Part shown: positions 1,696 to 62,079 of the stretch, piece after piece
Numbering within the stretch: the first letter of the stretch is position 1
Layout: every line of letters begins with the position of its first letter
Origin: Brachycybe producta
Taxonomy: Eukaryota > Arthropoda > Diplopoda > Playtdesmida > Andrognathidae
DNA length: 64,000 bases
Direction: 5' to 3'
Assembly: GCA_036925085.1 (NCBI GenBank)
Contig: JAUPFP010000046.1
Span: 875,501 to 939,500 of the forward strand
The notes under the pieces: generated by a model
The model's input: the letters and a program-made list of their open reading frames with translations, nothing else
The model's database searches: none
What the model was told of the DNA's origin: nothing
Made by a program: the position numbers and the translations under genes

Positions 1696-2565
1696 ATTCA
1701 ACTGTTTACAAACCATCTTTAATAATGAAACATAATTTTTGTTGTTCATATTTCATTTCACACCTTTAAAACTTTAAAAATGTGAAGTGTATTAAATAAA
1801 TTTACAAAAAACACTGATTTAAAAAAAATGCATTTAAAAATGTTAAAAGTTCATTTTTTAACATCGGTTTTTGGAATTTTTCTTTTCTTCTGAATTAATT
1901 TTTTTAAGATAAGAGAAATAATAATAATAAAATTTTAAAGTTCGTGTTTTTCATTTTTTCCGTTTGAAATTCATTAGCATACACTTAAGTGTTAAGTTAA
2001 GTGTGTTCGTGCGTTGTTGTTGTTGTTCTGGTGAGGAAAATAACACACACCTTGTGATTTATGATGATTGGTCGGACAAATAGTTGAAAATACAAAAAAA
2101 AATGTGTTCCGTTACAAAGAACACAATTTTATTTTATTATTATTATTGTGTTCCGTTGTTTGTTCGGGTTTTTTTTAGGTAAAAATAACGTCAAAATGTA
2201 GTAGGGTTGGTTATGGGGGGGGGGAGTTGCCCTGGTTGGGGTTGAGTGGTAGCAGCCTTCACCGTGTCTCTCTTTAAACCACATTCTCTCTCTCTCTCTC
2301 TCGATTCCCTTTTTTTTTACTTGTATTGGGTCTCAAAGGGTGGTTTTTTATAGGAAGAAATGAAAAATGACTGGCCTTCAGATTTATAAAAATGCTGTCA
2401 GAATTAAAAGTGAGAGAAAAACGAAACAATATGATCTATAAATATATATATTTCATAAAATATGAATTATTAAAGTGACCTCTCCTCTTCCTCCTCCGCC
2501 CCACCAATTTCTACAGCCCTTTTTAGGTAAAAACAAAATCAAAATGACGTCAAATTGTAGCGGAA

Positions 2566-2875
2566 ATTCATGTTTTGGTCAAGTATGGCGCTGTCAATTC
2601 ATGTTTTGGTCAAGTATTGTGCTGCCAATTCATGCTTTGGTCAAGTATGGCGCTGTCAATTCATGCTTTGGTCAAGTATGGCGCTGTCAATTCATGTTTT
2701 GGTAAAGTATGGCGCTGTCAATTCATGCTTTGGTCAAGTATGGTACTGTCCATTCATGCTTTGGTCAAGTATGGCGCTGCCAATTCATGCTTTGGTTAAG
2801 TATGGCGCTGTCCATTCATGCTTTGGTCAAGTACGGCGCTGTCAATTCATGCTTTTGTCAAGTATGGCGCTGTCA
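2566..2875. repeat. 31-bp minisatellite, ten units
   Basis: The motif ATTCATG(T/C)TTTGGTCAAGT plus ATGGCGCTGTCA recurs exactly every 31 bases, starting at 2566, 2597, 2628, 2659, 2690, 2721, 2752, 2783, 2814 and 2845, with few substitutions. Because 31 is not a multiple of three, the array creates overlapping open frames in all forward frames; these are not genes. Confidence 0.95.
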
Positions 2876-3029
2876 ATTCTTTTAACAGCTTACTACATGC
2901 ATACAAATTTATTACGACAAGTTTGCATTGTTGTGGTTGTATAATTGACACAAGTATGTTCCAACTTAAACAACGGTTGGAGCTTGGAGTTGGAGGCTAG
3001 CAGTGCTTCTTATTACAAGAAAGGCCTCG

Positions 3030-12500: not shown

Positions 12501-15500
12501 ATAAACTTTTTAATTTTTTTTTATAAATAAACATTAAAAACTGCTTAAAGTTATGTCATTTTTTTAACTCACTCAAAAAAAGCTTATTTTGAAAGATATA
12601 TTCAACATGAAAACACTTTTAAGTGATTGAGTTACCCTTCTAGTTTCTAAAACACACTCAAGTTTCACTTCATTTTGCTCTTCTGAAAGACAGGCCTCGT
12701 TTACACTTAAAACCGACGCGATTTGGACGTGAAATCCTGAAAAAAATCTTCCACCAGATACATTTACTAACATAACAAATTTACTCTTCTACTTTCTAAT
12801 TTTCTAACAAATTTTCAACTTTTTAAAAAAAAATAATATCAGTAAAGAAGTGGGTTTAAAAAAAGTCTAATGTAATGTACTCTCTTTAAAATTGCGTGTC
12901 TATTCATATATTTCTTAATTAATATCGTCTTTTCTAATATTTAATTGTCCCATTTAATTAATTATTATTAAGAATGTCAAAAAACGAAAACGGATCCAAA
13001 TAACCGAACTGGGTCCCTATAAAGTCAATGTTCGTATAACAATACGAACAATATCCGATAAATGGCAAACGTAACCTCATCATCATCAGCATAATTGGAA
13101 ATACGTTAATTAATAGTAAACCTTTTATTAATTAATTAATTAATTAATGAATGAAAGAAGAAAAATCTAAATCAAATTAAGAAGAAAACGATCGTCTCGA
13201 TCGTCAATTTTAATGACGTAATTTTATTATCCGGTTCTGCTGGCAACTTGTTTGTGCTGCGACCAAAAGGCACCCATTCCCCTCCCTCCCCTCCCCCAAT
13301 TAATTAATTTAATTAATAATCGTAAAATGTTTTAAGTAATTTTAATTTCATTTAATTTTAGGTGATGCACAACCGAGACAATTACGGTCATCCTAGAGAA
13401 AACTTCATTCGAGACTGGAACGACTACAAGAACGGATTCGGAGACATGAACAGAGATTTCTGGTTGGGAAACGAAAACGTATTCATGTTGACCAATCAGG
13501 AGGATTACGTTCTAAGAGTCGACCTCGAAGATTTCGATTCACATAAACGGTAATCGAGCTGATGGTTAAGTACTTGCTCTGGTCAACTATACTTTTCATA
13601 ATATAATTATTAATAATGTTGCCTGATGCTTCTTTACCCTTACTATAACCTGAATAAGTGATAAGGCAAAGTGAATAGCCCATCCATGACGTCAAATGGC
13701 ATTGACTGGAGATGACTATTGAATGAACTTCAGTGGAAATCACTAGCAAGCCATAAAGCTGAGCAAAGCGCTGCCCTTTCTTGAACGTTTGCTAGCTGTT
13801 CCAAAACAGTGCTTTGTTAACTGGAATTCTTACAAGGAATGGCCATCCAAAGACAATTAATGTCTAAACTTTGTCTAAGGTCCTTGAAATCCAAACCACT
13901 TTTGGAGATGTTGAGTTCGACTGAAAAATGAAGTCGGCTTGTCGAACGAAACCGACCACTCGAGTCGACTACGGTGGTTGAAAGGTGATCCAAGTGTAGA
14001 TCAATTGGAAAGTGGTTCGTGTACAAAAAAAAGGAAATATTGTCACCGCGGTGGCAGCGATCGACCACTTTCTCATTGTTGAGAAGCCGCTCGTGTGAAA
14101 CGGTCCGAGCATCTTTCCATAGCAATACATTGTCAACCGACAGCCCAGTCACCTGCAACAGTATTTTGTTGTCGAACTGGACCACTCAAAAGTAGTTCGT
14201 GTGACAACGCACTAAATAACAATCATTTATGATTGGATAATATATCAACCGAGGCTCCCCCAACTTAATTGCAGTTGTACTGAGAGTTCAATTGAATTGT
14301 TTTGTATAATAATGCACCTCTCTTAAGACTGGAATACACAAGACCACTTTTTGACTTGCAATAAAACGGAAGTCAAAGGTGGTTTTGCTGTGGTTGCACT
14401 GTATATTCTATAGAAACACTCAAGGTGGTCGGATTTGGCGACTAACAGACTTCATTTTGCAGCCGAATCACGTTACTCCTTTTCTCAGAGCTAACGTTTT
14501 CTTCTCACGTATTCAGGTTATACTTAACCGCAGCATAATAATCATATTTCTTTAAACGATGCATTCTAGTGGGGGGAAAAGAAAGTGAGTTAGAAAATGA
14601 AAACAAATAAATTTCTTTTCACAGTTATGCAATTTACACCAAGTTTAAAATCTTCAGTGAGGCTGAAAACTATAAATTGGAGATCGGTAACTACGAAGGG
14701 AACGCCGGAGATTCGCTTAACGATCCGTGGTACGGAAGCAACCTCAACCCTTTCTCCACTTACGACAGGTAACCAAACGGATCACTTTTTCATTCATTTT
14801 ATTCATTCTCTACTTAACACTGTAATAACAACTTGAGACAAATCATAATTAAAGAAATGAGGTTTTTATTTCTCTCTTTTTTCAGCTCCGTAAAATTTAA
14901 GTTTCGTAAAATTTCTTTCAATCTCATTTTTCTCAGAAAAAAAAAACCTGTTTTCTAAATTTTGAATTCGTTAAGAAAAATTATCCCCTTTAGAAATAAA
15001 AATGAAAAATAATAATAAAAAAATACCAGTTTTACTATTTTAAATAAAAAGAATTAATAATAAAAGACAGAAAAACCCCCCAAAAAAAATCTAGAAAACA
15101 AGGAAAGGAATTGAAAGTTAATTAAATCTAAGCCACAATTTGAAAAAAAGAAGAAGAAAATTATAACCTGAATAATACAGACCTCACATGTGTACTCTCA
15201 GCCATATCTGAGAGTCAACTCTCACACTTAATTGACTCTCAACACAGGCAGTTAGAAATCGGGGAGAACGTCAGTTGGCTCCGCCCTTGTTATGACGACT
15301 GGCAACTTCTAATTGGTTGGTTATCTAGTCTGACGTCGCATGCTCCGCCCCCTTTTCAACGTCGAACCACACAACAAACCAATTAGAAGTTACCGGTCGT
15401 CGTAAAAAGGACGGAGCCAACTGAAGTTCTCCCCGATTTCTAACTGCCTGTCTCTCAACAATGTTATTTATCTTCTTATTAATAAGGCAAAAATAATTAG

Positions 15501-16070
15501 CTCCTTTTTAAATCAATGAAGCTGTTTAGAGGCTAGAGATCTCCTAGCATGAACATGCAACTAAAGATTGCATCCTAGCCTCTATCCAACCAGTTTTTTT
15601 TCCGATTGCAAAATGAATTATGCGTTTTTCAATCAATGAGACTTGTTTCGAGGCTAGAATTCAAGGAACTTCCTACCTCCACCAACCTTAAATTACTTTT
15701 GAGCATATTAACCTCTAAACAGTCTCGTTGATTGAAAAACGCATAACTAATTAAGAGGCTTTGTGCATTTCATTGTCAATTTTTAACCTTAATTATCATT
15801 TTACGTTTTATTCATTTGAAAAACAGAGATAACGACCGATCGTCACTGAATTGCGCCTCCATGTTACGAGGAGGTTGGTGGTGGCGAAGTTGCGGCCGAG
15901 GACTTAACGGAATCTACCTGACCAACCCCACCGACCTGGCAGCTCGCCAGGGAATAGTCTGGTTCAGATGGAAGGGATGGGACTACACATTGAAACGAGC
16001 TCGAATGTCGATACGACCCAAAGCATTCGTACCTCCAGTAACCACCACCACCACCACCACAAAGGGCTAA
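9600..16070 (+). CDS. Coiled-coil protein with C-terminal fibrinogen-related domain (5' partial)
   Basis: Five exons are joined in phase: 9600-10820, 11211-11637, 13362-13549, 14625-14768, 15827-16070, giving 740 residues to the stop. The first 500 residues are heptad-rich and polar (ENTCRSMLDQMTRRLDTMEQ near the start, a second helical block near VKTYLQRQTGKIMQNLEQ) with Ser/Thr/Asn-rich linkers. The last 220 form a fibrinogen-related domain: CADLRTRG, then CDMETNGGGWT, FWLGNENV, VDLEDF, the calcium-site region YDRDNDRSSLNCA and GGWWWRSCGRGLNGIY, WKGWDYTLKRARMSIRP. The tail is threonine-rich. The protein is probably extracellular and oligomeric, like angiopoietin-like proteins or insect scabrous; I cannot choose between these. 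The signal peptide and start must lie on upstream exons I did not find. An upstream TTG in frame at 9559 is intron read-through. Confidence 0.9.
12350..12720. mobile_element. TAGAAGGGTA-family copy in the fibrinogen-gene intron
   Basis: Full palindromic copy with outer arms (GCCTCTCG near 12369, CGTTTACACTTAAAACC near 12699) and inner arms (GTAGAAGGGTAATTCAATCA; TGATTGAGTTACCCTTCTAG). It sits inside the 1.7-kb intron 11638-13361, which otherwise shows only AT-rich sequence. Confidence 0.85.
13800..14220. repeat. Probable unclassified MITE remnant in intron
   Basis: Recurrent GACCACTT/AAGTGGTC motifs in both orientations, for example CCACTCGAGTCGACTACGG and AAGTGGTTCGTGT, suggest a fold-back repeat. 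The minus strand is open for 122 codons here but shows no family I know and its composition follows the repeat. Related fragments continue to about 14450. Confidence 0.4.
15244..15451. mobile_element. Complete hAT-like MITE
   Basis: Terminal inverted repeats read ACAGGCAGTTAGAAATCGGG on the left and the complement on the right, and the match continues inward (CTTCTAATTGGTT against AACCAATTAGAAG; GGCTCCGCCC against GGACGGAGCC). An exact 8-bp duplication CTCTCAAC abuts both ends (15236-15243 and 15452-15459). Length 208 bp, no coding frame. Related copies are at 1-29, 43633-43823 (diverged) and 63582-63748. Confidence 0.9.
15525..15760. mobile_element. Pair of GAGGCTAG fold-backs in the last fibrinogen-gene intron
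   Basis: Two small palindromes with arms TTTAGAGGCTAGAGATC / CCTAGCCTCTATCC and GAGACTTGTTTCGAGGCTAG / AACCTCTAAACAGTCTCGTT. The flanking ATGCGTTTTTCAATCA and its complement TGATTGAAAAACGCAT show that the second unit extends at least from 15620 to 15750. The last exon starts 67 bases further on. Confidence 0.75.
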
Positions 16071-16257
16071 CTGTTAGCCCCATAATGTGCATACGAAAAA
16101 CGAAAAGGGCAGAAAAGGAGTCGCATGGGCCAGAAAGGGGCAGACACACTTCAAGGAGGAAGGGAGGCCCACTCGGCTCCAGTCTGATTTCTTTGTAGAA
16201 ATAATTCTAATTACATATTTCAATCATATCACATTTAAATTTCGCGGTTTTCTCTTC

Positions 16258-16263
16258 AATAAA
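16258..16263 (+). terminator. Poly(A) signal of the fibrinogen-domain gene
   Basis: AATAAA lies 188 bases after the stop codon at 16070, the first such hexamer downstream. A palindrome around two GTGACGTCAC motifs (about 16265-16365) follows directly. Confidence 0.6.
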
Positions 16264-16365
16264 TAACTGCACATTCATCTTTATTCATTGATGTATCCAT
16301 CAGTGTGACGTCACGTCCATAGAGATATGCACAAGTGACGTCACACTGCTGAATAAATCAATGAA

Positions 16366-17111
16366 TAATGAAATAAATATAAGATTAATACAACGCCATC
16401 TAGTATCATCATTAGCAATTAATCGTAAACACCTAAACACTCCCCTCCCCTTTTTTTATTAGCATTTACACGAGGGGAACGACATAAATAGAAAATCATG
16501 TACGAGATTCACACCAGTGCGGATGTACAGCAAACCACTTTACTTTTATCCGCGTTTTACTAGAAGTCCAAAATAGAATAGAATTCTGAAAATTCATTAA
16601 AAAAAACCGCAGATAGAAAGTAAAACAGTTTTAAATATTGTACGAGAATGACCCCTCTATGTCTCCTCCTTGCATTTACATCATTACCAATACATCACCC
16701 AGTAAACATGACATTAGTTTTCATTCTTGAAGCAGCTTTTTTGTCAGTACAATACGGCACTTTAAATAAAATCGCCATATTCGATCACCCCCACCCTTGA
16801 GTATATTAATTGAGACTCAAGACTGTCAGACAACAATGGGTGCTTCAAGTTTTATATAGCTGGCAATTTGTTTGTGCCCTATCACACGCTAGATAGAAAG
16901 TCTAGAGAAGTTAGTATCGAAGGGTGTAGCGCCATCTATTGGTCACCATAGGAAACTAATAATTCTTCCTATTCTAATGAAATGCATTTTTCTTATTTTC
17001 TCATTATATTCTTATATCATTTTTTTTTCTTTTGTTGTACAGAAATTTATGTTGTTTTTTTCGAATAAAATAATTTCAAAGTATTAAAAAAAAAACTAAA
17101 ATTGTACTTAC
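16366..17111. other. Spacer between fibrinogen-domain gene and small minus-strand gene
   Basis: AT-rich sequence without a recognisable repeat. It should contain the last exon of the minus-strand gene at 17112-17528, because the exon ending at 17112 is followed by a strong donor (GTAAGT). Candidate acceptors around 16945-16965 on the minus strand would give only a few more residues before a stop; I could not decide among them. Confidence 0.5.
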
Positions 17112-17528
17112 CGAAACGAAGAACTTTCCTTTTTCGTTTTAGATTTTGTTGTAAATTAGACGAAACTGAACTTTTGACAGGACTTTTAGATTCTTTAGAA
17201 TCAGAATTCAATTTATAATCAGCGTTACGTAACTGAAAACAACAACAGAACGAATTATTAGAATAGCAAAACGAATGAACGTAAAGAAAAAAATACTCCT
17301 TCAAAAAAACATGGTTCAAAAATCAAAACTCACCTTTTCTTTGAGAACGTCAATCGATTGCCACGCTTTATTAATATCTAGAATGCAAAAGAAAATTATA
17401 ATTAAACTAATTAATAACAAAAAAAAGCAGTCAAAAAATGACAAACCGTGAATAATGTTAAGGCTTTTATCACGATAAGGTGGACGACTGTATGTTATTT
17501 TGACATTTCCTTGTTTTTTTGAATTCAT
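17112..17528 (-). CDS. Small basic protein of unknown function (3' end uncertain)
   Basis: Three exons on the minus strand join in phase: 17447-17528 (ATG at 17526-17528), 17334-17377 and 17112-17232, all with GT-AG borders. A 5' non-coding exon probably ends near 18570, where CAAG|GTATGT occurs on this strand, pairing with the acceptor before 17544. The visible 83 residues begin MNSKKQGNVKITYSRPPYRD, include the helical INKAWQSIDVLKEKLRNADY, then a Ser/Lys-rich part and a basic patch LKRKRKVLRF that could be a nuclear localisation signal. I do not recognise the family. The last exon is not established. Consistent exon phases and splice sites make a real gene likely. Confidence 0.6.
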
Positions 17529-17609
17529 TTTTCGTGTGAAATACCTAAAAGATTAAACAAAAATCATTTAGAAAAAACAGCTGATTTTCGAATTCTTAAT
17601 TATCTCTTT

Positions 17610-17990
17610 GTTTTTCAGGAAAAAGAAGGAAGTGTTTTAAAAACTAGAAGGGTAGCTCAATCATTTAAGGTGATTTTTAAAATGTAAACGCCTCTCGAAC
17701 TCTTGATTATTCTGTCTTTCGCAGCAAATTTATGAGAAACTAGAAAGTGTTTTAGAAAACTAGAAGGGTTAAGTATATTTTAATGTTGATATCTTTCAAA
17801 ATAAGCTTTCGTTTTTATGCGAGTTTCAAAATGACTCAAAAAGTTTGTTTTGAAATATATCTAAAATGAGAATACCTCTTAAATGATTGAGTTACCCTTC
17901 TAGTTTTTAAAACACTTTCTTTGTTTCTCTTAATTTTGCTCCTGAAAAACAGAATAATCAAAGTTCGATTGGCGTTTACACTTTAAAAAC
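17610..17990. mobile_element. Full TAGAAGGGTA-family copy
   Basis: One of the best-preserved copies: outer arms GTAAACGCCTCTCGAACTCT at about 17685 and the complement ending GGCGTTTACACTTT near 17980, inner arms AACTAGAAGGGTTAAG and TGAGTTACCCTTCTAGTTT. It lies in the probable 5' UTR intron of the small minus-strand gene; a partial left arm at 17620-17670 suggests a second, truncated copy. Confidence 0.85.
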
Positions 17991-18609
17991 AAACTAAATT
18001 ACAAACGAAACGAAACAAATGAAAGAAAAGAACCAAAACACAAACTCTCCCGCCAAATATTTTGTTTGCGTTTGCGTTCTTTAAGTAAGCATCATGAGAT
18101 AATTTATTAAAGAGTCGTATTGTGACGTCTTGCGGAGTTTACCGAAGCAAACCATGTGGGCGTCATGACGAAATAAGATGGCGTCAATTAGGCGCCAAAA
18201 TAACCAATGTCCAATGCCTTTAAATCCGCCTTTTTAACAATAAACCCAACAAAACCTAATGATTTCACGGAGTAGTTTATTCGAATTTCGTTAAAACAAC
18301 CCTAAAATTATCAAATAAACCCAAAACTTGGCGCAATTTTACAACTTTTAGCCGGTTGTAAACAAATAAGATAAAGGAGAACGCAAATGTCACATTATTA
18401 CGCGAAAAACAAAATCATTTTAAACACTTTTTAAGCGTAAAAAATGCAAATTGTGACATTTGCTTATCAAATAACCAATAATTTACATTTTAATCGCTAA
18501 ATAAGGTGATAAATAATTAAAATTAATTAAGAAAAATGAGAAAAATCGCTTAAACATACCTTGAAAAAACGACTAAATCTAAAAGCCAATGGCCGCCAAA
18601 ACAGTTGTA

Positions 18610-20204
18610 GTGCCACCTAGCGGACCAAATCGAAAATCTAGAAATTTAAAATAAAATTAATCTAATAGCGCTTTAACAAAAAGACAAACTCCGACAAAGC
18701 GTAAAAACTGAAACATTAAATAAGTTATAAATAATAAACATTGTAATCACTTTAAATGATCTAAAATATTTAAAAAAAATGGCTATAAAAACGAGAAGTT
18801 TCACTTAAAATTTACGTGAAAACGTCTAAACAAATAAACTAAATTTTAAATTTGAATAACAATTGCCGCTTAAAAAAATAGTAATGCCACTTATTGACTA
18901 AAACACACAACTTAAAAGCGCTTTAGCAAAAGGACAAATAACCATAAACTCAAAAATCTACTCTATATTTTTATACTAAGTTACTAAATTGAAATACAGT
19001 ACATTAATTTTAAAAGATTAAATTAAAATATTTAATGCAACAATTTAAAACTGTTTCATAATTTATCACGAAGTTAAGAAAAGTTTTTAAAATAAAAATA
19101 TTTTACAAATAATAAATTTTTAATAATGTCAATTCAATTGTTTTATGTGCAGCTGATTTAGGAGAAGACAAATTAAAAAAAAATATTGCTTTAAAATTGG
19201 ATTATTTTCAATCTGACATAAAAACAGCTTATTTTAATATATACACAACATAAAAATAAACTTAAGTGATTGACCTACCCTTCTAGTTTATAAAACATAT
19301 TCAAGTTTCTCGTCAAAGCCCAAATACACATGTAATGAGAGTTCGAGAAATGTTTAAATTTTTTAAATTTAATAAATTAGAATAAAAATAGTAAAAATGT
19401 ATTTAATTATTAAATATATTTACATTAAAAATATTTCTTTACCTTTTTCTAAAGGTACTAACTCCCCCCCCCCCCCAAACACCCCCACAAAAACATAAGG
19501 CTATTAATAAGAATAAATAAATCAATAAGGAAATAAAAAGCCTTTGTATATAAAATGCATTATTAAACATGTCACATATTGACACACATACTAAAAGTAG
19601 ATGTTATGTTGTTTCCATGGAAACAATTACGCAAATTAATAAAATATTTATGTAAATCTGTACAGCTGTGGTCAGGAAAAGTGGACATACACTAAAATGT
19701 TTCTAGTAAAAACAATTGGACAAATAAATTACAAGTTGGAAGTTACTGTCAGTCATTTAACATGTTTAATGGATTCTTTGAGAAAAAACTCAACTTACTT
19801 CGGTATTTATTTTAAGAAACCATTCTCATTTTATTTTAAATTTACATAATTATTACAATTATATAAACATTATTATTAAAAATAATAATAGCAATTATAA
19901 TAATTAAGATGTTTTATGAATTCTTGGTTATTCTGTATTTCAGAAGCAAAATTAAAACAAAAACAAAAACTAGAAAGTGTTAGAAACTAGAATGGTGGCT
20001 AAATTATTTATTATTATTTAAATGTTGGTATTTTTCAAAATAAACTTTTATCTAGATAAATTAAGCTACCATTCTAGTTTTTTATTTTGCACCTGAGAGA
20101 CTGGAATAACCAGAGTTCAATAGACGTTTCCACTTTAAAACCACAATAAATATAAATTATTAATATTAAATAATAATATTTAAACACAAGAAATACATTT
20201 TCAG
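18610..20204. other. AT-rich spacer with partial repeats, upstream of WDR31
   Basis: Very AT-rich. It holds a half copy of the TAGAAGGGTA family at about 19195-19330, a fuller degraded copy at about 19905-20145 and a C-tract at 19466-19477. One or more N-terminal WDR31 exons should be here (about 45 residues are missing by comparison with the human protein) but none could be supported. Confidence 0.5.
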
Positions 20205-22765
20205 ATTCAAAGAAAATCCTAATCGTATATTTGAAGTTGCTCACGAAGGACCAGCGTTATGCTTGACCAGTGCCAAATGTGGACATTGTCTAAGTGGAGG
20301 TTACGACCAAGTAAGTGGACATAACCACTTCAAAGCTTTTCAATTTATTTTAATTTACTCCATTTATTTGAGATTTACCTTTTTTAAATTTATTTCTAAT
20401 AACAAACATGAAGACAGTGGTAGTTTATGACTACTATAATGGTAAAACAGTACAGAAATGGACTGGTCATCAACAGCAAGTGACCACAGTAAGAAAAATA
20501 AACAATTTGCAACAATATTTTTTTTTTTAAAAATTAAATTTTTGATATATTTTTTTATTAAAATAATTTCTAAAGATATCTTATGGAAATAATTGCGATT
20601 TGATTGCAAGTGGTTCCAGAGATAAAACGATCAAAATTTGGAAATATGACCAAGAGGACGCAGTGGACACAATAGATGGCCACGAACTGACCATCACCGG
20701 ATTAGATTTTAATTTAGGTGTGGATAATCTTAAACGCACTGTTTGAACCAATTACTTTTTCAAAATAATTAATTAATGAGTGTAATTACATGAGTGTACT
20801 TAAAGTGAAAAATGAAAATGAAGAATTTAAAACACAAAAAGAAAAGTAATTTGCAATTCTACATTTGAAAATGTAATTAACTACAATTACAAAGTTTCAA
20901 AATCATTAATTACTTGAAAAGTAATTTAATTCATTACTTTTGTTAAATTACGTCCGAACACTACTTAAAATTGATCCAAATTTAAATTTATAAAAGATAA
21001 TACGATTCTGTGTTCGGGATCGAGAGACAACTGCATCAAACTCTGGGATGTTTCGACCGGAAAATTGATTACATCTTCCAAAATAACTCGTAATCTGGAA
21101 AGTTACTTAAAAAATTCTCTCAGAAAATATTTCTAATGTTTGTAAAATAAATTTACCGTTCGACAGATTACTCATTTAAAGTTCACGAATAATACGAACA
21201 TGGTTATTCAGACCAGTGAAGACAAACAATTGCGGTAACTGTCAACGAACTCTGATTAATTATGTTTTTCAAGAGCAAAATTAAGAGCTGCATGAAAGGG
21301 TATTAGAAACTAGAAGGGTAGCTCAATCACTTAACATGTTAACATTCAAAATAAGCTTTTTACGTGAGTTCATTTTGAAAGAAATCAACATGAAAATACT
21401 ACTAAGTAACTCAGCTAAAGTTCTAGTTTGTAACACACTTTCAAATTCTCCTTATTTGTTGTTGTTGAAAATGCAAAACAACCTTGTTATAAAATCAGCT
21501 GATCATAAAACATCTTAATTTCATTCATTGCAGTTTATGGGATGCAAGAACGTTGCAAGTGTCCATTTGTTTTCCTGCAAAACAACACATGCAAATGCAC
21601 TGCGACGTAACATCGAACGATAATTATATTTTAACATGCAGCAATGGAACAAACGGCAACGGATGCGAATCAACAGTTAAGTTTCAAACCTCACCATTTA
21701 CAGCTCCACTACAGTTGTACCTTATGCTAGAATTTTACAATATTAACCGAAACCTAGTTATGGGATGTCCGTAAATGCAAGTTACTTCGAGAGTACAGAG
21801 GCCACCAACAGACCGTCAACTCTTGCTCGTTCTTCAAACTTAGCGAGTACGGACACTATCAAATAGTGACAGTGTCACAAGACAACACTTTAAGGCTTTG
21901 GAGCTACGAAACATCAGGTCCGAGAAGTGGTCAAGGGCTTTACGTCCAAATTTCATGAAGGAAACTTAAAAGACACTTCAACTTGAATCCTTCAAGCACT
22001 GCTGGTCTAACATAGAAAAATCCTTTTTATTAATACAAAATAAAATAGGATTTTCCACTTAGAAACTCTGCTTAGAGGGTTCAAGTGCCAAGTTCCCTCT
22101 TGATATTAAGTTTAATGAAGAGCAGTTTGAGAAGTTGCATAAGGTATTTCGTAAGGTTTATAGACATAAATTAAAAATATCATCTGCTTGAAGTTGGGTC
22201 ATTTTCAAAATGACATAAAAAGGTTAAGTTAAAAGATATCAAACATGAAAATACTATGAAGTGATTGAGCTACCCTTCTAGTTTCTAAAACACATTCAAG
22301 TTTCTCTTCATTTTGCAGCTGAAAGACAGAAGAAATGATGCCATTTATGCTTTAAAAACACCTTAATTTTCTTTTCAGATTGTTTGTTCATTTTAACATT
22401 GGATGGTTCAGGTGCTCTCAATGACGTCACTGTCCTAGACGAAGACAGGTGATTATGGCCCGAATTAAAAATAAAAAAACCTAACACTTGAACCCTCCAA
22501 ACAAGAGCTCCAAATGCAGAAAGAAAATGCTATTTTAAACAGCACCCATTGCACAGAGCTCTTTTTCTATGTAGAAACCTTACTCGGAGAGTTCAAGTGT
22601 GAAGTTTCTTTTTGGAGCTCCAAGTAAAACATGCTAATATGCAGATTTTAAATGCTCCTTTGAGATAGTTTGAGCGTAGCCACTTATCATAACGGAATTC
22701 ATCGCATCATTCGAGGATTTCTATACATGGGACAATGGATATTAAAGAAAGTTTCAAACTTCTAA
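20205..22765 (+). CDS. WDR31: WDR31, WD-repeat protein (5' partial)
   Basis: Nine exons: 20205-20310, 20414-20488, 20576-20717, 20997-21097, 21167-21234, 21534-21675, 21758-21917, 22379-22448, 22669-22765; 319 residues to the stop. The order of WD repeats and local motifs match human WDR31 as I remember it: ASGSRDKTIKIW, CSGSRDNCIKLWDVSTGK, VIQTSEDKQLRLWDARTLQV, FPAKQHMQMHCDV, CSNGTNGNGCES then LWDVR, and LTLDGSGALNDV near the end. WD proteins of this type are scaffolds; WDR31 is linked to cilia. The N-terminal ~45 residues are missing because upstream exons were not identified. Odd point: the exon ending at 21097 joins in frame only if the intron 21098-21166 begins GAAAGT. A fold-back repeat sits in the intron 21235-21533. 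Confidence 0.9.
21240..21520. mobile_element. TAGAAGGGTA-family copy in WDR31 intron
   Basis: Both arms are present (AACTAGAAGGGTAGCTCAAT near 21308; TAACTCAGCTAAAGTTCTAG near 21405, degraded). It fills most of the 299-base intron between the exons ending 21234 and starting 21534, leaving only splice-site sequence at either side. Confidence 0.8.
21955..22370. repeat. Two repeat remnants in WDR31 intron
   Basis: The intron 21918-22378 contains a fold-back with arms CACTTCAACTTGAATCCTTC and AGAGGGTTCAAGTGCCAAGT (about 21965-22105), followed by the right half of a TAGAAGGGTA-family copy (about 22150-22370). The next intron (22449-22668) holds another fold-back of the first type (arms CACTTGAACCCTCC and GAGAGTTCAAGTGTGAAG). 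Confidence 0.7.
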
Positions 22766-24674: not shown

Positions 24675-27600
24675 TCATACGAGTTCTAAAACTTTTATAG
24701 TACCCTGACTATTAGCAGCAACGACGACGTTAGAACCCTAATAAATAGAAAATTCAAGACCAGGAAAAATTGAGTTCAAAACGAGAAGAAAAGTGACGAC
24801 GAACTAGAGTTACGCACCTGCCTCCAGCAGACGGCGCTCACGAATTCGTTCGCATCCTCTTCTTTCTTCTCCTTATCGAGGACGCTACGAACGGTGTCGA
24901 ACTTCATCGTGAGCAGCTGTTTCGACAATCCCTTGTAATAGACAAACAGAGAATTGTTTTCGCTTCCTGATCGATAAAGAAAAAACCGTAAAATCGATTT
25001 ATAATGAAGCCGTTTTTAGTTAAAAAGCGACTGAACTGAAAAGAAAAAAAAAAAACACAGACCACAAACGATGTAGTCGCCGTCGGTCGCTAACCCGACA
25101 AAGTTCTTTTCGTTAGTATGACCTTTAAACGATCGCAACGAATAAGACTTGTTGATGTTCCAGAGTTTCAGTTGGCTGTCCGTCGAACTGAACGTTCAGT
25201 TTAAAATGAAAACGTAAATAATTGAATCAGAAGCAACAGTCAGAAGAAAGTGAAAGTGTTTTAGATACTAGAAGATCAACTAAATCGTATAAAACCTTTT
25301 TCGACCCAACGACCCAATTTAAGCTTTTCAAAGTTGGTCGACAATTTTATATTTTTAAAAGTATCAACATAAAAACACTGTACGCGATTCAGTTACTCTT
25401 CTAGTTTCTAAAACATATTTAAGAAGCAAAATGACGAGAAGGTTCAAATTGTTTCAGAAACTAGAAGAGTAGCTACATCATTTACGTTAGCTATCATCAC
25501 ATGATGATATTTTTCAAAATTTGAAAATGATCCAATATTAAGCCGCCGATATTTTTTCCGTTTTTTGTCTTAAAAAAAAGTTCATTTTGAAATATAACAG
25601 CATGAAAATAATATTAAGTGATCCAGCTACCCTTCTAGTCTCTAATACACTTTCAATTTCTCCTCAAGTGCTGCTACTAAAATGGAAAAGCAGAATAAAT
25701 ATCGCAATAGTAGCAAAAGTGAACGTACGCAGAGACAATTTCGTCCGTATTCAAGAACTTTGCGTACGAAACGGCTTTACGGTGTCCTTTGAAGACACCG
25801 AGTGGTTGTTTCAAGTTTCGTAGATCATAATAATGAACACAGTGATCTACAAGAACGGAAAACGATACAAAATACGGTTCGTTACGTTACAACGAAGAAA
25901 AAACGGGACGAAGCCCAGACTTGGATCTGGTTTTGCAAAAAAAAAACTTAAAAGATACGAGACAAATAGAAAAAGAAGAAGAAGAAATTGGTTAGTTAAG
26001 AAGTTAAGAAAAGATTGATTAATACCGAGTCTGGGCTGTCCCGTCTCGTTTAGTATTTCCACTTTTATCATAAAAAGTAGCAGCAAGTGGGTTAGAAACG
26101 AGAGGAGAGAAGAAAAAAAAATAGCATAAAAGATAAAACAAAAAAAAAATTACTTTATCAGAAAATAAAACTCATCTTAACGCAGAGTTAAGAAAAACTT
26201 GCATAAGCACAACGGTCTCCCCACTTTTTCGCAACTGTCAATAGTTTTTCGTCGCTGACATTTTAAAAACTTAACATTCGATCACACCCGTAAAGAAGCA
26301 AAAGAAGAAGTTCTTGAAATTTTTTTCTTTGACGAGACATTTTTCCATGTATTTTAAAAACTACTACTCGATCGCACGAAAAAAATACTATCTTGTTAGA
26401 ATTTGTAACTAGTCTTCGTCTAAATTTTAAAAAATATAGTTGCACCCACAACGTAGCAAAAGTAGTAAGTTTTCGTCACTTTTTGCACTTGTCGATAGTT
26501 TTTCGTCTCAATTTTAAAAACTATCATTCGATCAGAAACGAAAAAGTACAACACTTTCGACCCTTTTTCGCACTTGTCAATAGTTTTTTTTTGGCTCAAT
26601 TTTAAAAACAACTGTTTTTAGATTTTTATAACTATCGTTTAATTCCACCCACAAAAAACCTACCGGCCGATCCGAACGCAAGATGATATCGGCTAGAAGG
26701 GCTAAATTTAACGCAGCAAACGTTTGCTTTTGCTTCGAGAGAAGCGATAGAATGATCACGGTCGGTTGCCCAGAGTTTAACTGAACAAAGAAAAAAAACG
26801 AAGATGAATCAAGAAACGTTTCTTGTGAGCAAACCCTCTTTATAAAAAAAAAACCTCTTGCATCATCCGATCCGGAAGCTATCAGTTTCGTATCGACACG
26901 ATTAAAGTCAACACTCCAACACCTCTTCTCGTGTTCCTGAAAAACTCTCGCTTTCTGACCGGTAAAAGCGTCCCAAACGGTGACGGTTCCTTCGTAATCG
27001 CTGCTTGCCATCGTACCCTTGTGATACGAACTCCAACTCACGCAACTAAACATGAACAGTAAAGCCATAAGAACAAAAAAAACCCGCCGAAGAGCCTCGC
27101 GACTCGACGAACAACCTGATCTTTGAATTGCAGACCATTTCGTTAACCGGATAATGAATGTCGACCGCATCCTGAACGACCATTCCGTACTCGAAGACCT
27201 GAAACGAAAATTGCGTTAAAAAAGCCTGAAAAGTGGAATTGCCCCTCAAAATTAAGAAGAAAAACAGACCTTTATCTTCTTCGTAACGCCGGCGATCGCA
27301 AAAAACTCACTATCCTTATCAAACTCGATGCTAAAATATAGTTTAAAGAACGTATGAATAAATAAGAAGACGAAATTCGACAAAAAGGTGAACGTAGCGA
27401 CACCTAGATACGATGCTGGAACCGTTGAAAATATCACAGGCATAACTGAGAGTGGCAAGTGTCCGCATGCCGCTGTATCTCGTAAATTTGGCTAAACTAT
27501 CTTGAAAGTCGTCAAGACCGTCACCCGATCCGTCGCCGCTATCTAATAAAAACCAGAAAAGAATCGATTCTTAACGTCGTTCGGCTGCAGAGGAGGGAAG

Positions 27601-30600
27601 AGAAAACGTCGTCGTTTGTACCAAACTCCTTGTTTCTCAAACTAAAATAACACTGTTCGAGATCATCGAAATGTACGTGCATCCTCTTCCGCCGTGCTGC
27701 CAAAGTATTTTGTGGCAAAAGATTTAACCGATCGGTCTAAAAAAAATTGAACGAAACCAATAAGAACAAAAAACGGTGGAAAAAAGTTCGGTCATTCGAT
27801 TATTACGCTCTTGTTTCCGTTAAAACTATCCTGAGAATTATTGGCGGTAGATGTCGTCGTCATTTCATCTCCGTTTGTGATTGCGACTAAATCGCTACCA
27901 CTGACACTCGGTGAATACTGATCAGGTACGGACGAAGGATTCGCCACATTGTGGCTATTACAGTACGACTGAAACGAAAAACATTTCAGATGTACTCGAA
28001 AGAAAAACATACAAACTGTAAAATGAGATTCTTAGACGTTTTCGAAAAAACTTTCAAAAGAAATTCGTAGTTTATTTAAAACTAGTAGATTAACAGAAAG
28101 AACCAGCGGTGTTTTCGGCGATGTTATCTTTCAAAATAAACTTTCAATGACAAATTTCATCTTTTATTGACATTTTTTAATTTAAAACTCATTAAGAAAC
28201 GTTGGTTTTCAAAGATATCATTATGAAAATAAAATTAATTATCATATTTTACTCTTATGAATTGAAATAAAAGTATTAAATTTCATCTTCCACACTTTTT
28301 AAATCGACATTAAATTAATCTCATAGAAATCGTCGTGAAAATTAGAATTATTTCATTCGTGAAGTTTCAATTAAAAATTTCGTTTTAAAAACTAAAAAAT
28401 TCAACGAAAAGTATTAAAATTTCATCTTCGAGACTTTTTCAAATGCGAAAATCAGCATTAAAAGTTCGTTTTTAAACATATCGCCATGAAAAAACCACAA
28501 TTGTGTGCTCCTCTTAATTTCTTTCAAAAATTGTATTTCAAAATGCAAATATTTTTTTTATTAAATGTCGTTTCCAAGAGACTTTTCTCAATTTCCAAAT
28601 ATTTTCACAAATATTGTCACGAAAAGAACATTATTCTAGCTTCATAAAAGTTTGAATTAGTAATTCAAAGTTTCTTTATAAAAACTAAGAACCTCAATCA
28701 CTGCACTTGTTTCGTACCTCGACTTTTTTCGAATCGTCATCTATACAAGTAATCTCTTTGGTGAGCCGATCCAGTTGCTCCTGTTTGTGTTTCCTAACCT
28801 GATGAAGGAACTCACGGAGCAACTGAAACTGAGCTGCCTTGCAGTCCTGCGTAAGAAAAAAAAACCACGATTAAAACGACTAATCTCTCTCTTTCAATCG
28901 GTTATTTCGAGTTAACCGCTTCCAACTGCTGTTTCTTCTGCACCAAAACTTCCAACATGAAATTAACGTCGGCCAATTGCAAATTATCCGCTTCCTGAGA
29001 CAAGAATTCCTGCAATTCGGATACCTGATGCCCATTCTAGACAAACGAGGAACACATTTTAGTTTAGGTGAGAAAACCGATGAGATTCAATAAACATCGT
29101 AAACCATTTTCTCCATTCGACGTTTCTTTTCGTCCATCTGTTGCTTATGTTTGAGGATCAATTCGTTAACTAAACAAAAAATAAATAAACAAGTTTCAAA
29201 AAGAAACGCGGAAGGAAATAATTTAAAGAGGAAAAGAGAAACTTACGTAAGAAGTTTGGAAATATCTGATCTTTGCTCTCGACGGTGAAATTACATTTGG
29301 GACAACGATTACTTTGCTCCAGACTTTTCAGAATACATTTGCAACTGTTGACAGTTCAGAAAGAAACAAGACAAGTTGTATAACCAGTGAATTACAAGTA
29401 AATCAAGTGCCTGCGCTTCATGAGAAAAGTGTCTCAAGAAACCAAAATTCATTGTGATTTCTTCAGGATCCCAGACATAAATCCCTTCCAATTTCGAGAG
29501 GGTTTTTCTCTCTATAAAATCACCCTTATTCCAAATATTAGAAAAAGAGAAAAGAGGGTCGCGGTCGGGTGGAACCTGTTCTCCCTCCTCCTCCTCCTAT
29601 TGTTATGTGTGTTTTTTTTTCATCTAGGGCTCCACCCAAACACGATGATTTCTCTCGTACCGGGACATACCCAAATAAGAATGTTATATAGATTTCGAGG
29701 GCAATTTTATTAAGGGTGGGTCTCTCTCTCTCTCTCTCAAAATATAATATACTATATCATGTTATCTATTTGGTTCGAATTGATGTCAAATGTTCTAAAT
29801 AGAAAATTAACATTTACTAACACTTGTAACATCGAAATCAGAAAACAAATTAGAGCAACAAATAAAAAAAAACATATCTGGAGATTCAAGTTTTCTCTTT
29901 TTTTTTTTGTAGTTTTTCCTGTAATTCTTCCCTTTCCTACACATTTGAGCAATTTCGACCAGCATATTTTTTGTAAGTTTCCTGCATATTCTTCCGCTAT
30001 TTGGTTTCCCTGTAGATTTCTCACGGTATTTTTTTTTCGTTGCTATTTTCCTGCGTATTATATACTTTGAGGTGTGACTAATTTGTGTGAACAACAACAA
30101 CATGATTAAATGTCTCATAGAAAATTTGTCATTTTACCATACTTTTTGTTATCAGTTTCAATAATTTGCTGAAATTGTGATGCATTTCATGATTTTCAAT
30201 ACGTTTCATCGTTTTGTACGTTTAGTCAAACCGCAATTTTTGCATCCGTTTCGTGAATTTAATGAAATTCTTGCGCATTTCATGATTTTCCAAGCATTTC
30301 ATCAGCTTGGTTAAACTCCATTTTTGCATCAGTTTCAACAATTCGATAACATTTTCGTGTAATTCATGATTTTTCATGCATTTCTCCACTTCATCAGTTT
30401 AGTCAAACCCCAGTTTTGTCAATTTCAACAATTTGATGATATTTTTTTCCCATGCAATTTCATCATTTCGATATAAAACCCAAATATTTTTCTTTAATTT
30501 GATGTAATGAAGTTTGCAATTTCTCTCCATATATATTATTTCGTTATTTTATTTTGTTTTTTGTTTCTTTGTAAATTCCTCGCTTATTTTTTTTAGCTTT

Positions 30601-31463: not shown

Positions 31464-32638
31464 TGTTTCGTCTCTTCTGTTAGTTTCAACTTATGAAACA
31501 AATTCGAAACAGAAGAAGAAAAAAAAACACACAAGCTAAAAAACTAGAAGGAGCTAAAACTAAAAAAAATATGAAAATTTATCCGAATAAATTCATCATT
31601 TGATGAAACGACCAAAAAAAAAAACACCGCAAAAATCACAAATTATTTCGTTGAATTCAAAGCGATATCAAACGATGACATCTCAATTATTAAATAAAGT
31701 TATTTTATCAATGAAAAAAACATACTTTTTCTTAGTTTCTGTGTCGTTTATGCACCTGTGTAACGACGCCATTTTAATTACAAAAAAAAAAATGAAATGC
31801 TTATAATATGGAAAAAAAAATCGACCAATCACAATACCACATCCGGTATTAGCCGCAGCCACTGTAAAAGTTGAATCTATGCGCCGCCAATGGATATTTT
31901 AAAATTAAAATTTTCTTTTTCAACAGTTTGCTAAAATCACATTTTTTAAAAAATAACAAAAACAAACTTTATAATGAATATTACAAATTAATTTTAGAAA
32001 ATTTTTCTAGATTTCAAAATTCTCGAGCTCCGCCGTTATTAAAATACCAATTAAGCGGCCGCGAAAAAAAAAACGACCGGAAATGATACTAGCGCCCTCT
32101 CTCTCTTTAGAGTCCTAGATATCTGGGGCTCTATAATTAGCCTATTTTCATTCAGCAATTTACCGGTTTTGATCATAATAATCCAATGGATGTCGTTTGG
32201 GAAACGGGAGTTCAGGTGAATCAGTAATTAAAAGGGATGAATAACATCAAAGAATGTATCGTAAACTTTAAATTAGAACAGCGCCACCATCGGCGAATGT
32301 CAAAATAAAAGATGGCCGCCATAGTTTTCTAGCAGACGAAACTTTTAACACGGAAGTCTGCGAGATTTAATTTTACAAAGTAAATATGCAATAAATTTAA
32401 GCAAATTTTCAATAAAAGTGAAGTAGAAAGAACGTTCTTTCAGAATCCGTAGTTATTTCTCTGATTGGATTTACAGTTTTGATGTTATTTTAATTTTAAT
32501 TTCAAAATTGTCAAAATTAACATTTTTCTGCAAAAAATGTATATTTAGAAAATTCAAAATAAAACGAGAGGTGCATTAAAATCCTCATAGACTTCTATGT
32601 TACAGTTTCATCTCCTGAGAGAATAAAGGCCATTATAT
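31464..32638. promoter_or_regulatory. Divergent promoter region between COP1 and XRCC2
   Basis: No coding sequence was supported. YY1-like motifs occur on both sides: GACGCCATTTT at 31765-31775 (minus-strand AAAATGGCGTC) and AAAAGATGGCCGCCAT at 32306-32321. These probably mark the two start regions, which would be about 300 bases upstream of each start codon. Confidence 0.4.
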
Positions 32639-33478
32639 ATGAAAACAATAATTAACAACCAACGTTTCCACTTACGTTCGAAGTTTTTAGATCGACTTGA
32701 AGGTCGCCATTCATTGAAATACCTCGAAGACAGATTGTTTGATGGAAAACTCGAGGCCGGAAGTTTCGTCGAAATCAGTGGAAAATCAGGAATCGGCAAA
32801 TCGGAACTATTACTTAATTTTGTTTCCAGATGTCTTCTACCTTCAAAAATGGGCGGTCTTTTAGTACGAACCGTCTATATCGATAACGACCACCACTTCA
32901 GTATGTTACGCCTGGTGTCCCTCCTCGGCGCTCGTATCGCCGAATCCCTTTCAAACGACGGTGCAATGAATGCGGACAATCTAAAGCTGATCGATTCAGC
33001 TCTGAAGAACCTCAAGATAGTACGATGCATGAGTGGGATCCATTTTCTGACTACCCTTCATTACCTTGAGACTTTCACGATGAACGAAGATCCATTCTCA
33101 TTATTGATCATCGACAGTCTCTCGGCCTTCTACTGGGAGGATCGAATGATTCATGAATCTCAGAGGAATCTCGATGGACATCATCATAAAATTGCGTCCA
33201 TTCTGAACAAATTAATGACAGAACATAAAGTGACTGTTCTTTGTACCAATCAGGACCTAATGAAACAGAAAAATAAAGAAAACCCAGATGAAACTGAGGC
33301 TTCGGAGAAATTTTGTTCGGTACTCGGACAAGAGCTACAAAACTTACGGACATTTACAATTCGATTGAATCGAGATTCTAATTCTGACTGTAATCGAGTC
33401 GTAGCTAAAATTACGCATAAGAGTTCACGCCAAGTATGTTTTCAAATAAAGGACACTGGAGTCGTTTTTGATTCGTAA
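32639..33478 (+). CDS. XRCC2: XRCC2, RAD51 paralogue
   Basis: Single open frame of 279 residues with its own ATG. It is a RecA/RAD51-fold ATPase: Walker A GKSGIGKS at residues 48-55, Walker B LLIID at 155-159 followed by SLSAFYW, the same stretch seen in vertebrate XRCC2. DRLEGRHSLK near the N-terminus, RCLLPSKMGGL and DNDHHFSMLRLV are also family marks. XRCC2 works with RAD51D in the BCDX2 complex to assist RAD51 loading in homologous recombination. Length matches the human 280 residues. It is intronless, unlike its neighbours and the human gene. It lies head to head with COP1 and 505 bases upstream of NELF-E on the same strand. Confidence 0.96.
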   Translation: MKTIINNQRFHLRSKFLDRLEGRHSLKYLEDRLFDGKLEAGSFVEISGKSGIGKSELLLNFVSRCLLPSKMGGLLVRTVYIDNDHHFSMLRLVSLLGARIAESLSNDGAMNADNLKLIDSALKNLKIVRCMSGIHFLTTLHYLETFTMNEDPFSLLIIDSLSAFYWEDRMIHESQRNLDGHHHKIASILNKLMTEHKVTVLCTNQDLMKQKNKENPDETEASEKFCSVLGQELQNLRTFTIRLNRDSNSDCNRVVAKITHKSSRQVCFQIKDTGVVFDS

Positions 33479-36016: not shown

Positions 36017-37956
36017 TTACTTTTTCTCCTTTTTTATCGGCTTTTCGGGAGTCGAAGACGATCTTCTTTTTTCGCCTTTATTGTCCTCATCTTCCGTTGA
36101 CTTTTTGCCTTTTTTCTCATCGTCTTTACCATCCTTTGACCTTTTGCCTTTTTTGTCCTCGTCTTCATCGTCTTTTGAATTTTTATCTTTTTTGTCATCA
36201 TCTTCGTCGTCCTTTGATTTTTTGCTTTTTTTCTCCTCGTCGTCCTTTGACTTTTCGTCTTTGCTCTTAGTGTCTTTCTTGTCAGATTTCATCTCTTTAG
36301 TCGGCGTCGCTTTTTTCAACCAATTAGCCATAAATTCACTACTTTTAGAATTAGTTTCTTTCTTGACACTAAGACATACAAAAAAATTCTAATAGTTTTA
36401 CCATTTCTAAACACAAGAACAGAATTAAGAAAAAATTGAAAGTGCATTAGACACTAGAATAGGTAGCTGAATCATTTAATAGTATTTTTCATGTTGATAT
36501 CTTTCTGCTTAAAGTTTTGTCATTTTCAAACTGAAACAAGAAGCTTATTTTTAAAAATTTAAACATTAAAAATACCCCTTAAGCGAAAGAGCTACCCTTT
36601 AGTTTCTAAAGCACATTCAATTTCTTCTTATTTTTTGTTAAAAAATGTAGAATAATCACTAGTTCGCTTAAAAACCATTATGATTTACGTTAAATCGATA
36701 GGAAGGATACAGTCAGCTTCTTTATAGCGTGAATTTCCGACGCTTTTCGTCACGGGATGATAAACGAGCGACATCACAGGAACCAACGAATTTACAGCCT
36801 TTTAATCAGTAAAAAGCTTAGTTACAACATACCACAGTTTTGTCGATCTCATAATACGTTAAACTAACTTACATCATTTAAATCCACATTCTGTACATCC
36901 AACCAATTCTCAACAGCTTTTTCACCGTCCAAAATAGCCTAAAGATTCGTAAAATGTGAACGATAAACTCGTAAAATCGTGTTTTAAACAAGTGGCATCC
37001 TCACCGGCATCCGATCGTGAATGAACGACATTGTCGGAGACGAATCCATGGTTACGACTGCATAACTATAGAACTCACACTCGTCCTGAAAGATAATGAG
37101 CCGTTAAATGAGCGAAAGTGTTTTTTTTGTATGCATCGTACGTTTGGATCCTTCCATATATCGTAGACACCGGCCATCGTAAGCAATTTCGGACCACCCC
37201 ATCCATCAGTTTCCGACCAAAGTTTCGAGCCTCGTTCCTTCCAAGACGTATCTCCAACTTTAATATCGTCCGGTTGACGAAAATAAATGTAATACGGCTG
37301 TTTCGGTCCATTTTCTTCACTTTGCCACTCGTAGTAACTATAATCACAACAAAAACCAATAATTAGATCACTTTCGACGACTTTCAAATGCTTAAAGAAT
37401 CAAACCCATCGGCCAAAACAACGCATCTTCGTCCTTTACTCAACGGCACTTTGAAAATCTGCTTCGTTAGGAGCGTTTCTATCCTAGCATTGTTTGTTTC
37501 GAATTCCACATCACGAATGCTTCCTTTATGCCAGAAAGGAATTAGACCCCAGTGCATCGGCTGCACAATACGTTCCAGATCCGTTTCTTCGTTCGAAAAC
37601 AAAACAGGGCTAATAAATACAAAAAATACACTTTACGATGATTCAGAGACAGAAAATAAATCGCTCTAACGTATGGCTTGACGGTGCGACGTTGTATGAA
37701 GGGAAATACTGATTTCCTCGCGGACAATCGTTCCATTTAGGTAACTTCCACTTTTCATTGTGGTCCTTGTAGCTACACGCACGACAAACGTCATCAGGAT
37801 CCAAAGTACTTGAAAAAGAAACGTTTAAGGTGTTAATAAAACGTAACAGCAAGTAAAATCAGTTAAGAAAATGTTCGTAAGTCCAATATTTCAAGGTTAT
37901 ACTACAATGTAATGTACAATCGTCATTATAAATTACCACGCTGTTCTACCACACAT
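36017..37956 (-). CDS. HMCES: HMCES, SRAP-domain abasic-site shield protein
   Basis: Eight exons on the minus strand: 37937-37956, 37671-37808, 37406-37609, 37142-37337, 37005-37085, 36873-36938, 36689-36798, 36017-36368; 388 residues. The start MCGRTAC supplies catalytic Cys2, which crosslinks abasic sites after Met removal. Other SRAP active-site marks are Asn46 in PSYNVAPSS, Glu124 in DGYYEWQ and His209 in FIHDRMPAILDG; GRRCVVLADG and LLTMAGVYDIW are also conserved. HMCES protects single-stranded DNA at replication forks. After the domain and a basic DLTVKKE stretch, the last exon adds about 90 residues of Lys/Asp/Ser-rich repeats (unit like KKSKDDEDDDKK). The vertebrate tail is longer, with a PCNA-binding motif that I do not see. 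Divergent from PKN, convergent with NELFE. Confidence 0.95.
36410..36680. mobile_element. TAGAAGGGTA-family copy in last HMCES intron
   Basis: Palindromic copy with arms ACTAGAATAGGTAGCTGAAT and AAGCGAAAGAGCTACCCTTT, filling most of the intron 36369-36688. Confidence 0.8.
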
Positions 37957-38806: not shown

Positions 38807-54009
<15,203 letters not shown>

Positions 54010-61462: not shown

Positions 61463-62079
61463 ACTCCTTTTTTCTTGTTCGTTTTTCAAATATATTACAA
61501 ATTTCTGATCAATTCTGAGATATTTTTTTCTTTCGTATCTGCCAAATCATTTAGGAAGGAATAACGAAAGTGTTAGAAACTAGAACGGGTAGCTGAATCA
61601 CTTAATATTATTTTTTATGTTGATATCTTTCAAAATAAACGTTTCATATATAACAAAAATTAAAAAAAGTTGAGTTTAAGTGATTGAGCCGCTCTTCTAG
61701 TTTCTAAAACACCTTCTCGTTTCTCTTAATTTTGCTCTTCTGAAAGACAGAACACCATCCAGAGTTTAAGGGGCGTTTAATATTTAAAACCACTGTAACA
61801 AGAAGTCGACAGTGTTAGAAACTAGATGGGTAAGTGAATCACTTAATAGTATTTTTCATGCTGTTATTTTTCAAAATAAAGTTTTTATAAAAAAAATTTA
61901 AAAAAAAATATCACCTACTTATTTTAAAAGATATCATCATGTGATTCCGCTACCCTTCTAGTTTCTAAAACACTTTCAAGTTTCTCTTATTATTATGCAT
62001 TTTGAAAAAAATAGAATAACCAGACACAAACCATAAAACAACAAAAGACGAAACTTATTCGAGAAATTTACCATTTGGT
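59967..62079. other. 3' spacer between RING gene and SSNA1
   Basis: No coding sequence supported. It has two fold-backs of the CACTTGAACCCTC type (about 60420-60590 and 60600-60720), an AT-rich centre, a (CT)n tract (61429-61457) and two tandem TAGAAGGGTA-family copies (about 61555-61800 and 61800-62035), the last ending 45 bases from the SSNA1 stop. Confidence 0.6.

Follow-up and report, generated by a model that had tools for sequence, protein, structure and literature searches.

A candidate GA-AG intron in a WDR31 orthologue of Brachycybe producta

Introns with a GA 5' splice site are known from several animals. In the copepod Eurytemora affinis, 10-12% of the introns in the examined genes have GA/GG donors, and an AG before the donor is called obligate among 36 such donors (PMC5714493). 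The upstream AG is likewise described as highly conserved at the GA donors of both E. affinis and Oikopleura (PMC7072748). In human, 14 GA-AG introns are counted in work cited in PMC5714493, and the one in ITPR1 was confirmed by RT-PCR (PMC4176328). Donors altered in human minigenes, as described in PMC12805630, show how +2 changes fare: five of six +2T>A variants produce no normal transcript, ATM c.6347+2T>A, in the context CAG/GTAAGa, leaks 12% full-length transcript, and PALB2 c.3201+2T>C, in an ATG/GTAAGT donor, gives no normal transcript. A far drift of donors is reported for the tunicate Fritillaria, whose most frequent classes are AG-AC and AG-AT (PMC13326754).

The window, by which we mean the whole 64-kb stretch of DNA that was analysed, has 34.7% GC and no N, and resembles animal nuclear DNA with intron-bearing genes. 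The names COP1, PKN, HMCES, SSNA1, XRCC2 and NELFE are applied to its genes provisionally, and the reference sequences used to judge their junctions are likewise provisional. On the plus strand, nine coding exons of WDR31 could be placed between 20205 and 22765 (Table 1), amounting to 961 nt including the stop, with neither a frameshift nor an internal stop. The product contains WD40 repeats by Pfam, matches 632 distinct sequences of solved structures, and is identical at 114 of 274 positions (42%; E 2e-81) to a provisional human WDR31 sequence. This similarity over nearly the full length agrees with the gene name given in the original prediction, and we accordingly treat the gene as the probable WDR31 orthologue. 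A 130-residue piece of it gave 25 pattern hits in bacterial and archaeal genomes, with no relative among them. By eye, the WDR31 acceptors AAACATGAAG, TTATAAAAG and GAAACCTAG lack the T-rich tract common at the acceptors of the other genes.

Table 1. Features placed in the window (a slash in a motif marks the exon-intron boundary)
Feature	Position	Strand	Remark
WDR31 exon, first one found	20205-20310	+	first base is the end of a codon
WDR31 exon	20414-20488	+	
WDR31 exon	20576-20717	+	
WDR31 exon 5' of the GA-AG intron	20997-21097	+	ends ACTCGTAATCTG
Weak GT site CTC/GTAATC	21090-21095	+	8 nt upstream of the GA donor; 0.82 bits; out of frame
69-nt intron, GA donor and AG acceptor	21098-21166	+	GAAAGT...TTCGACAG
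Weak GT site AAA/GTTACT	21102-21107	+	4 nt downstream of the GA donor; 3.16 bits; out of frame
Possible branch point CTAAT	21133-21137	+	about 31 nt before the acceptor; motif match only
WDR31 exon 3' of the GA-AG intron	21167-21234	+	begins ATTACTCATTTA
WDR31 exon	21534-21675	+	
WDR31 exon	21758-21917	+	
WDR31 exon	22379-22448	+	
Probable last WDR31 exon, with stop	22669-22765	+	SLSVATYHNGIHRIIRG...SNF, stop
COP1-like gene	24678-29337	-	name provisional; Pfam WD40
XRCC2-like gene	32627-33475	+	name provisional; Pfam Rad51
HMCES-like gene	36302-37858	-	name provisional; Pfam SRAP
PKN-like gene	40104-53934	+	name provisional; Pfam HR1 and kinase
SSNA1-like gene	62083-63000	-	name provisional

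The junction of concern reads CTG/GAAAGT...TTCGACAG/ATT, the upstream exon ending in AATCTG at 21097 and the downstream one starting with ATTACT at 21167. Joining the two yields SKITRNLITHLKF, which is gapless against both WDR5 and the provisional human WDR31, and the peptide DNTILCSGSRDNCIKLWDVSTGKLITSSKITRNLITHLKFTNNTNMVIQTSEDKQLRLWDART produced by this join aligns with WDR5 at 63 of 63 positions of a WD40 blade stretch, again with no gap. The intron originally proposed here, starting with GAAAGT and ending with CAG, is in this respect borne out in the sequence; the gapless fit claimed against human WDR31 holds with that provisional sequence and extends to WDR5. Between conserved anchors we listed the joins to an AG acceptor that stay in frame, trying GT, GC, GA, GG and AT as donors, and obtained ten. 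Two of these are GT-AG joins, both from the GT at 21050, and they keep the frame but lose 16 or 21 residues of the blade. Against the provisional human WDR31 the GA-AG join fits with a score of 296, and the two GT-AG joins with 240 and 223; it is also the best against WDR5, at 125 as opposed to 114 or less for the alternatives, although having been picked for its protein fit it is favoured by that selection. When used as donors, the GTs at 21090 and 21102 run into an early stop within about ten residues, after HYSFKVHE or ENYSFKVHE. The original prediction was right about these two and passed over the in-frame GT at 21050.

No single GT-AG join was found that preserves the WD40 blade, and the boundary implied by the protein coincides with a donor-like context that has no usable GT. 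Retention would introduce an in-frame stop from within the 69-nt intron, and pairing the GA donor with the acceptor further on, at 21182, costs the residues ITHLK. The consensus of U12-type donors is (G/A)TATCCTT, of which 21081-21120 holds no exact match; an AT-AC reading of 21093/21165 stays in frame and lacks the U12 motif, falling one residue short with a score of 278 versus 296. The junction sequence, with any base allowed at +2, gave 0 hits in viral contigs.

Scored without its +2 base, the GA donor reaches 6.46 bits, a value that 31 of the 42 GT donors do not exceed and that is attained at 0.17% of the positions in the window. The contention that it lies one base from GTAAGT stands in that the site is otherwise consensus-like, with the T at -2, in the exon, as a further departure. 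The full AAGT at +3 to +6 is seen in 5 of the 42 GT donors. The exon ends in TG (as part of CTG), as is the case at 4/42 GT donors, while AG stands there at 16/42. Its predicted pairing with U1 is -4.4 kcal/mol, ranking 31st of 43 from the strongest and exceeding 12 of the 42 GT donors; a T at +2 would bring this to -9.1 kcal/mol. The acceptor TTCGACAG is of the AG type with a branch-point-like CTAAT upstream and a weak polypyrimidine tract, and the length of the intron is typical, 26 of the 42 GT introns being shorter than 100 nt (median 79.5).

In the six genes of our census 44 introns were placed, comprising 43 with GT donors and the GA donor of WDR31, the introns of the XRCC2-, NELFE- and RING-like genes being set aside. 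GT-AG boundaries characterize 42 of the 43 scored introns and also the 44th, the last intron of WDR31, and all six gene models can be read through the last of their junctions without meeting a stop (6,579 nt in total). The earlier assertion that all other introns begin with GT agrees with these figures, albeit from a count that was not blind: a GT join was taken wherever several were possible, and the census therefore leans towards GT. For each junction we also looked, up to 9 nt away, for a GT-AG pair that maintains the frame and alters the length by no more than one residue. Such a pair exists at 43 of 44 junctions, the GA-AG junction being the sole exception; since 11.8% of random position pairs have one inside the same tolerance, and the check started from junctions already chosen, it does not establish the other junctions one by one. 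Less certain junctions, in weakly conserved stretches, are PKN 51821/51979, COP1 29104/29036, 28717/27736 and 27621/27542, and HMCES 36688/36368. The last of these, a GT-AG join in frame, was used in place of one between the anchors ENDKTLSRKIS and SSEFMANWLK, which no GT join connects and the first of which was judged intronic.

No second GA donor was encountered among the 44 introns placed in the window. The chance of one or none among 44 is 5.7% at a GA rate of 10%, 2.5% at 12%, and 59% at 3.2%, the last being the RNA-supported GA rate in PMC7072748. Among the introns placed, nothing points to a relaxed spliceosome. It appears decidedly improbable that we are dealing with a further lineage tolerating GA donors devoid of an upstream AG, in which recognition of +2 had been loosened in a novel manner. 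Neither a tRNA scan of the window nor an Rfam search at gathering thresholds, aimed at splicing RNAs, returned a hit.

Compared with the described systems, the WDR31 site shares with the GA/GG donors of E. affinis (PMC5714493) the G at +1, the A at +2, the A at +3 (present in almost all of them), the AG acceptor, and the dependence of the full-length protein on splicing; it differs from them in that its exon ends in TG instead of AG, and in that GA is found at one of 43 introns here. The GA-AG introns of Oikopleura dioica have the terminal dinucleotides and the downstream A in common with it, but their upstream AG, highly conserved there (PMC7072748), is missing here; the exon end CTG thereby sets the site apart from the Eurytemora/Oikopleura class of GA donors. 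The parallel originally drawn with copepods and larvaceans is weak, inasmuch as the donors described in PMC5714493 and PMC7072748 follow AG. The engineered ATM c.6347+2T>A is similar in being a one-base change at +2 of a strong donor, but its exon ends in AG in the context CAG/GTAAGa, whereas the ATG/GTAAGT donor of PALB2 is nearly the context of WDR31, with the change being T>C (both PMC12805630).

Taken together, the protein fit, the join check, the donor score and the GT-AG census make an ordinary U2-type intron with A for T at +2 a well-supported reading of the sequence, and it is very likely that the WDR31 intron at 21098-21166 is real with a donor one base off a good one. We propose, with a probability of roughly 0.4, that this intron is truly spliced as GA-AG. 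In such a scenario, a genuine intron of the major spliceosome would have acquired its GA 5' splice site by a T-to-A change at +2 of an ordinary GT donor, the A being truly present in the genome; U1 snRNA would keep recognizing the site via the G at -1, the G at +1 and the complete AAGT at +3 to +6, and U6 would pair with the same stretch. Removal of the intron from 21098 up to the CAG at 21166 would then furnish the one message keeping the WD40 blade, possibly at lowered efficiency, with leakage to the GT at 21090 or retention giving rise to early-stop messages. The complete AAGT, the documented human GA-AG introns and the intact reading frame speak for such use of the site, and the TG at the exon end, in place of the AG reported before the GA donors of E. 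affinis and Oikopleura, speaks against it. These assessments are a matter of judgement: GA donors, erroneous bases and splice-null alleles all occur at low and similar rates, and the evidence from context pulls both ways.

Foremost among the alternatives is a sequencing or assembly error at 21099, where the A would conceal an ordinary CTG/GTAAGT...CAG intron; this we regard as somewhat unlikely. Base error and polymorphism were both named as alternatives in the original prediction. The site is one base away from a donor with the strong U1 pairing predicted for T at +2, its TG is found before several GT donors of this window and is absent from the described GA donors (PMC5714493), and by our own estimate base errors in draft assemblies occur at about the same low rate as true GA donors. 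That six models stay in frame and stop-free through 44 junctions indicates a sequence that is not obviously error-rich, although this is a weak test of substitutions.

Alternatively, the A might be real and represent a polymorphism, or else a mutation of recent date, that destroys splicing, in other words a null allele or the onset of gene loss, with intact GT copies existing elsewhere. The abolition of normal splicing in most of the human +2T>A changes of PMC12805630 is in line with this, and WDR31 is reported to be functionally redundant with ELMOD and RP2 (PMC10200814), for which reason its loss may be tolerated. Moreover, a search of the plus strand in 14900-20204 for a first WDR31 exon combining a start codon with a phase-2 GT donor yielded no convincing candidate. 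Against this, the remaining coding sequence is intact and well conserved and the other seven placed WDR31 introns are all GT-AG. We deem a null allele rather unlikely. In view of the TG context and the losses in human minigenes, base error and null allele jointly are about as likely as true GA-AG splicing.

Another conceivable arrangement is that of human FGFR1-3, where a GA 5' splice site likewise has a GT a few bases upstream (PMC4176328 and PMC2423196). The use of GA in FGFR reportedly depends on that GT, 6 nt away (PMC4176328), and the choice between GT and GA has been linked to U6 compatibility (PMC2423196). By analogy, the GT at 21090 might recruit U1 while cleavage occurs at the GA with its AAGT, the GT products being non-productive. 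However, the FGFR pair is alternatively used in frame, whereas the WDR31 GT lies 8 nt away, a spacing at which the two products differ in frame, and it scores below all 42 GT donors with a predicted U1 pairing of -1.7 kcal/mol; a functional GT of the FGFR type is consequently not what is found, and a mechanism of this kind seems very unlikely.

Homopolymer errors are common in some sequencing technologies, and an A overcounted in the GGAAAG run would make the GT now at 21102 the donor of an in-frame GT-AG join, with the exon one codon longer (RNLE/ITHL). This is highly improbable given the resulting one-residue insertion, which lowers the fit from 296 to 285 against the provisional human WDR31 and from 125 to 114 against WDR5, and the poor donor (3.16 bits as the sequence stands). 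Finally, a reading with two very short GT-AG introns (34 nt and 29 nt) that enclose a microexon of 14 nt can practically be dismissed. Four in-frame readings with two introns were obtained, and this is the one that retains the upstream exon as far as the GT at 21090; the shortest of the 42 GT introns, however, has 56 nt, and the peptide gains two residues, scoring 282 versus 296 against the provisional human protein.

If confirmed, the WDR31 intron would add another rare GA-AG intron of a known kind, unusual in that no AG precedes the donor. Being a natural GA donor in a context other than the AG/GA of the known lineages, it would provide a useful test of the tolerance of U1 and U6 at +2. It would also caution that gene prediction restricted to GT and GC donors breaks the WDR31 model at this point. 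If it is instead a base error or a null allele, the site is an ordinary one.

Elsewhere in the window, Pfam supports WD40, HR1, kinase, SRAP, fibrinogen, Rad51 and RING domains, and retrieves nothing for the SSNA1- and NELFE-like pieces. The sequence TAGAAACTAGAA occurs 44 times in the window at up to one mismatch (0.8 expected), for example at 19981-19992 (+), 21304-21315 (+), 22276-22287 (-), 51061-51279 and 61574-61967, partly in inverted pairs such as the 81% complementary arms 21255-21332 and 22259-22336; its copies, some of which lie in WDR31 introns, have the appearance of a dispersed family of MITE-like repeats. At 2466-2941 (+), a short tandem repeat array has translations that repeat motifs such as SCFGQVWRCQF in several frames.
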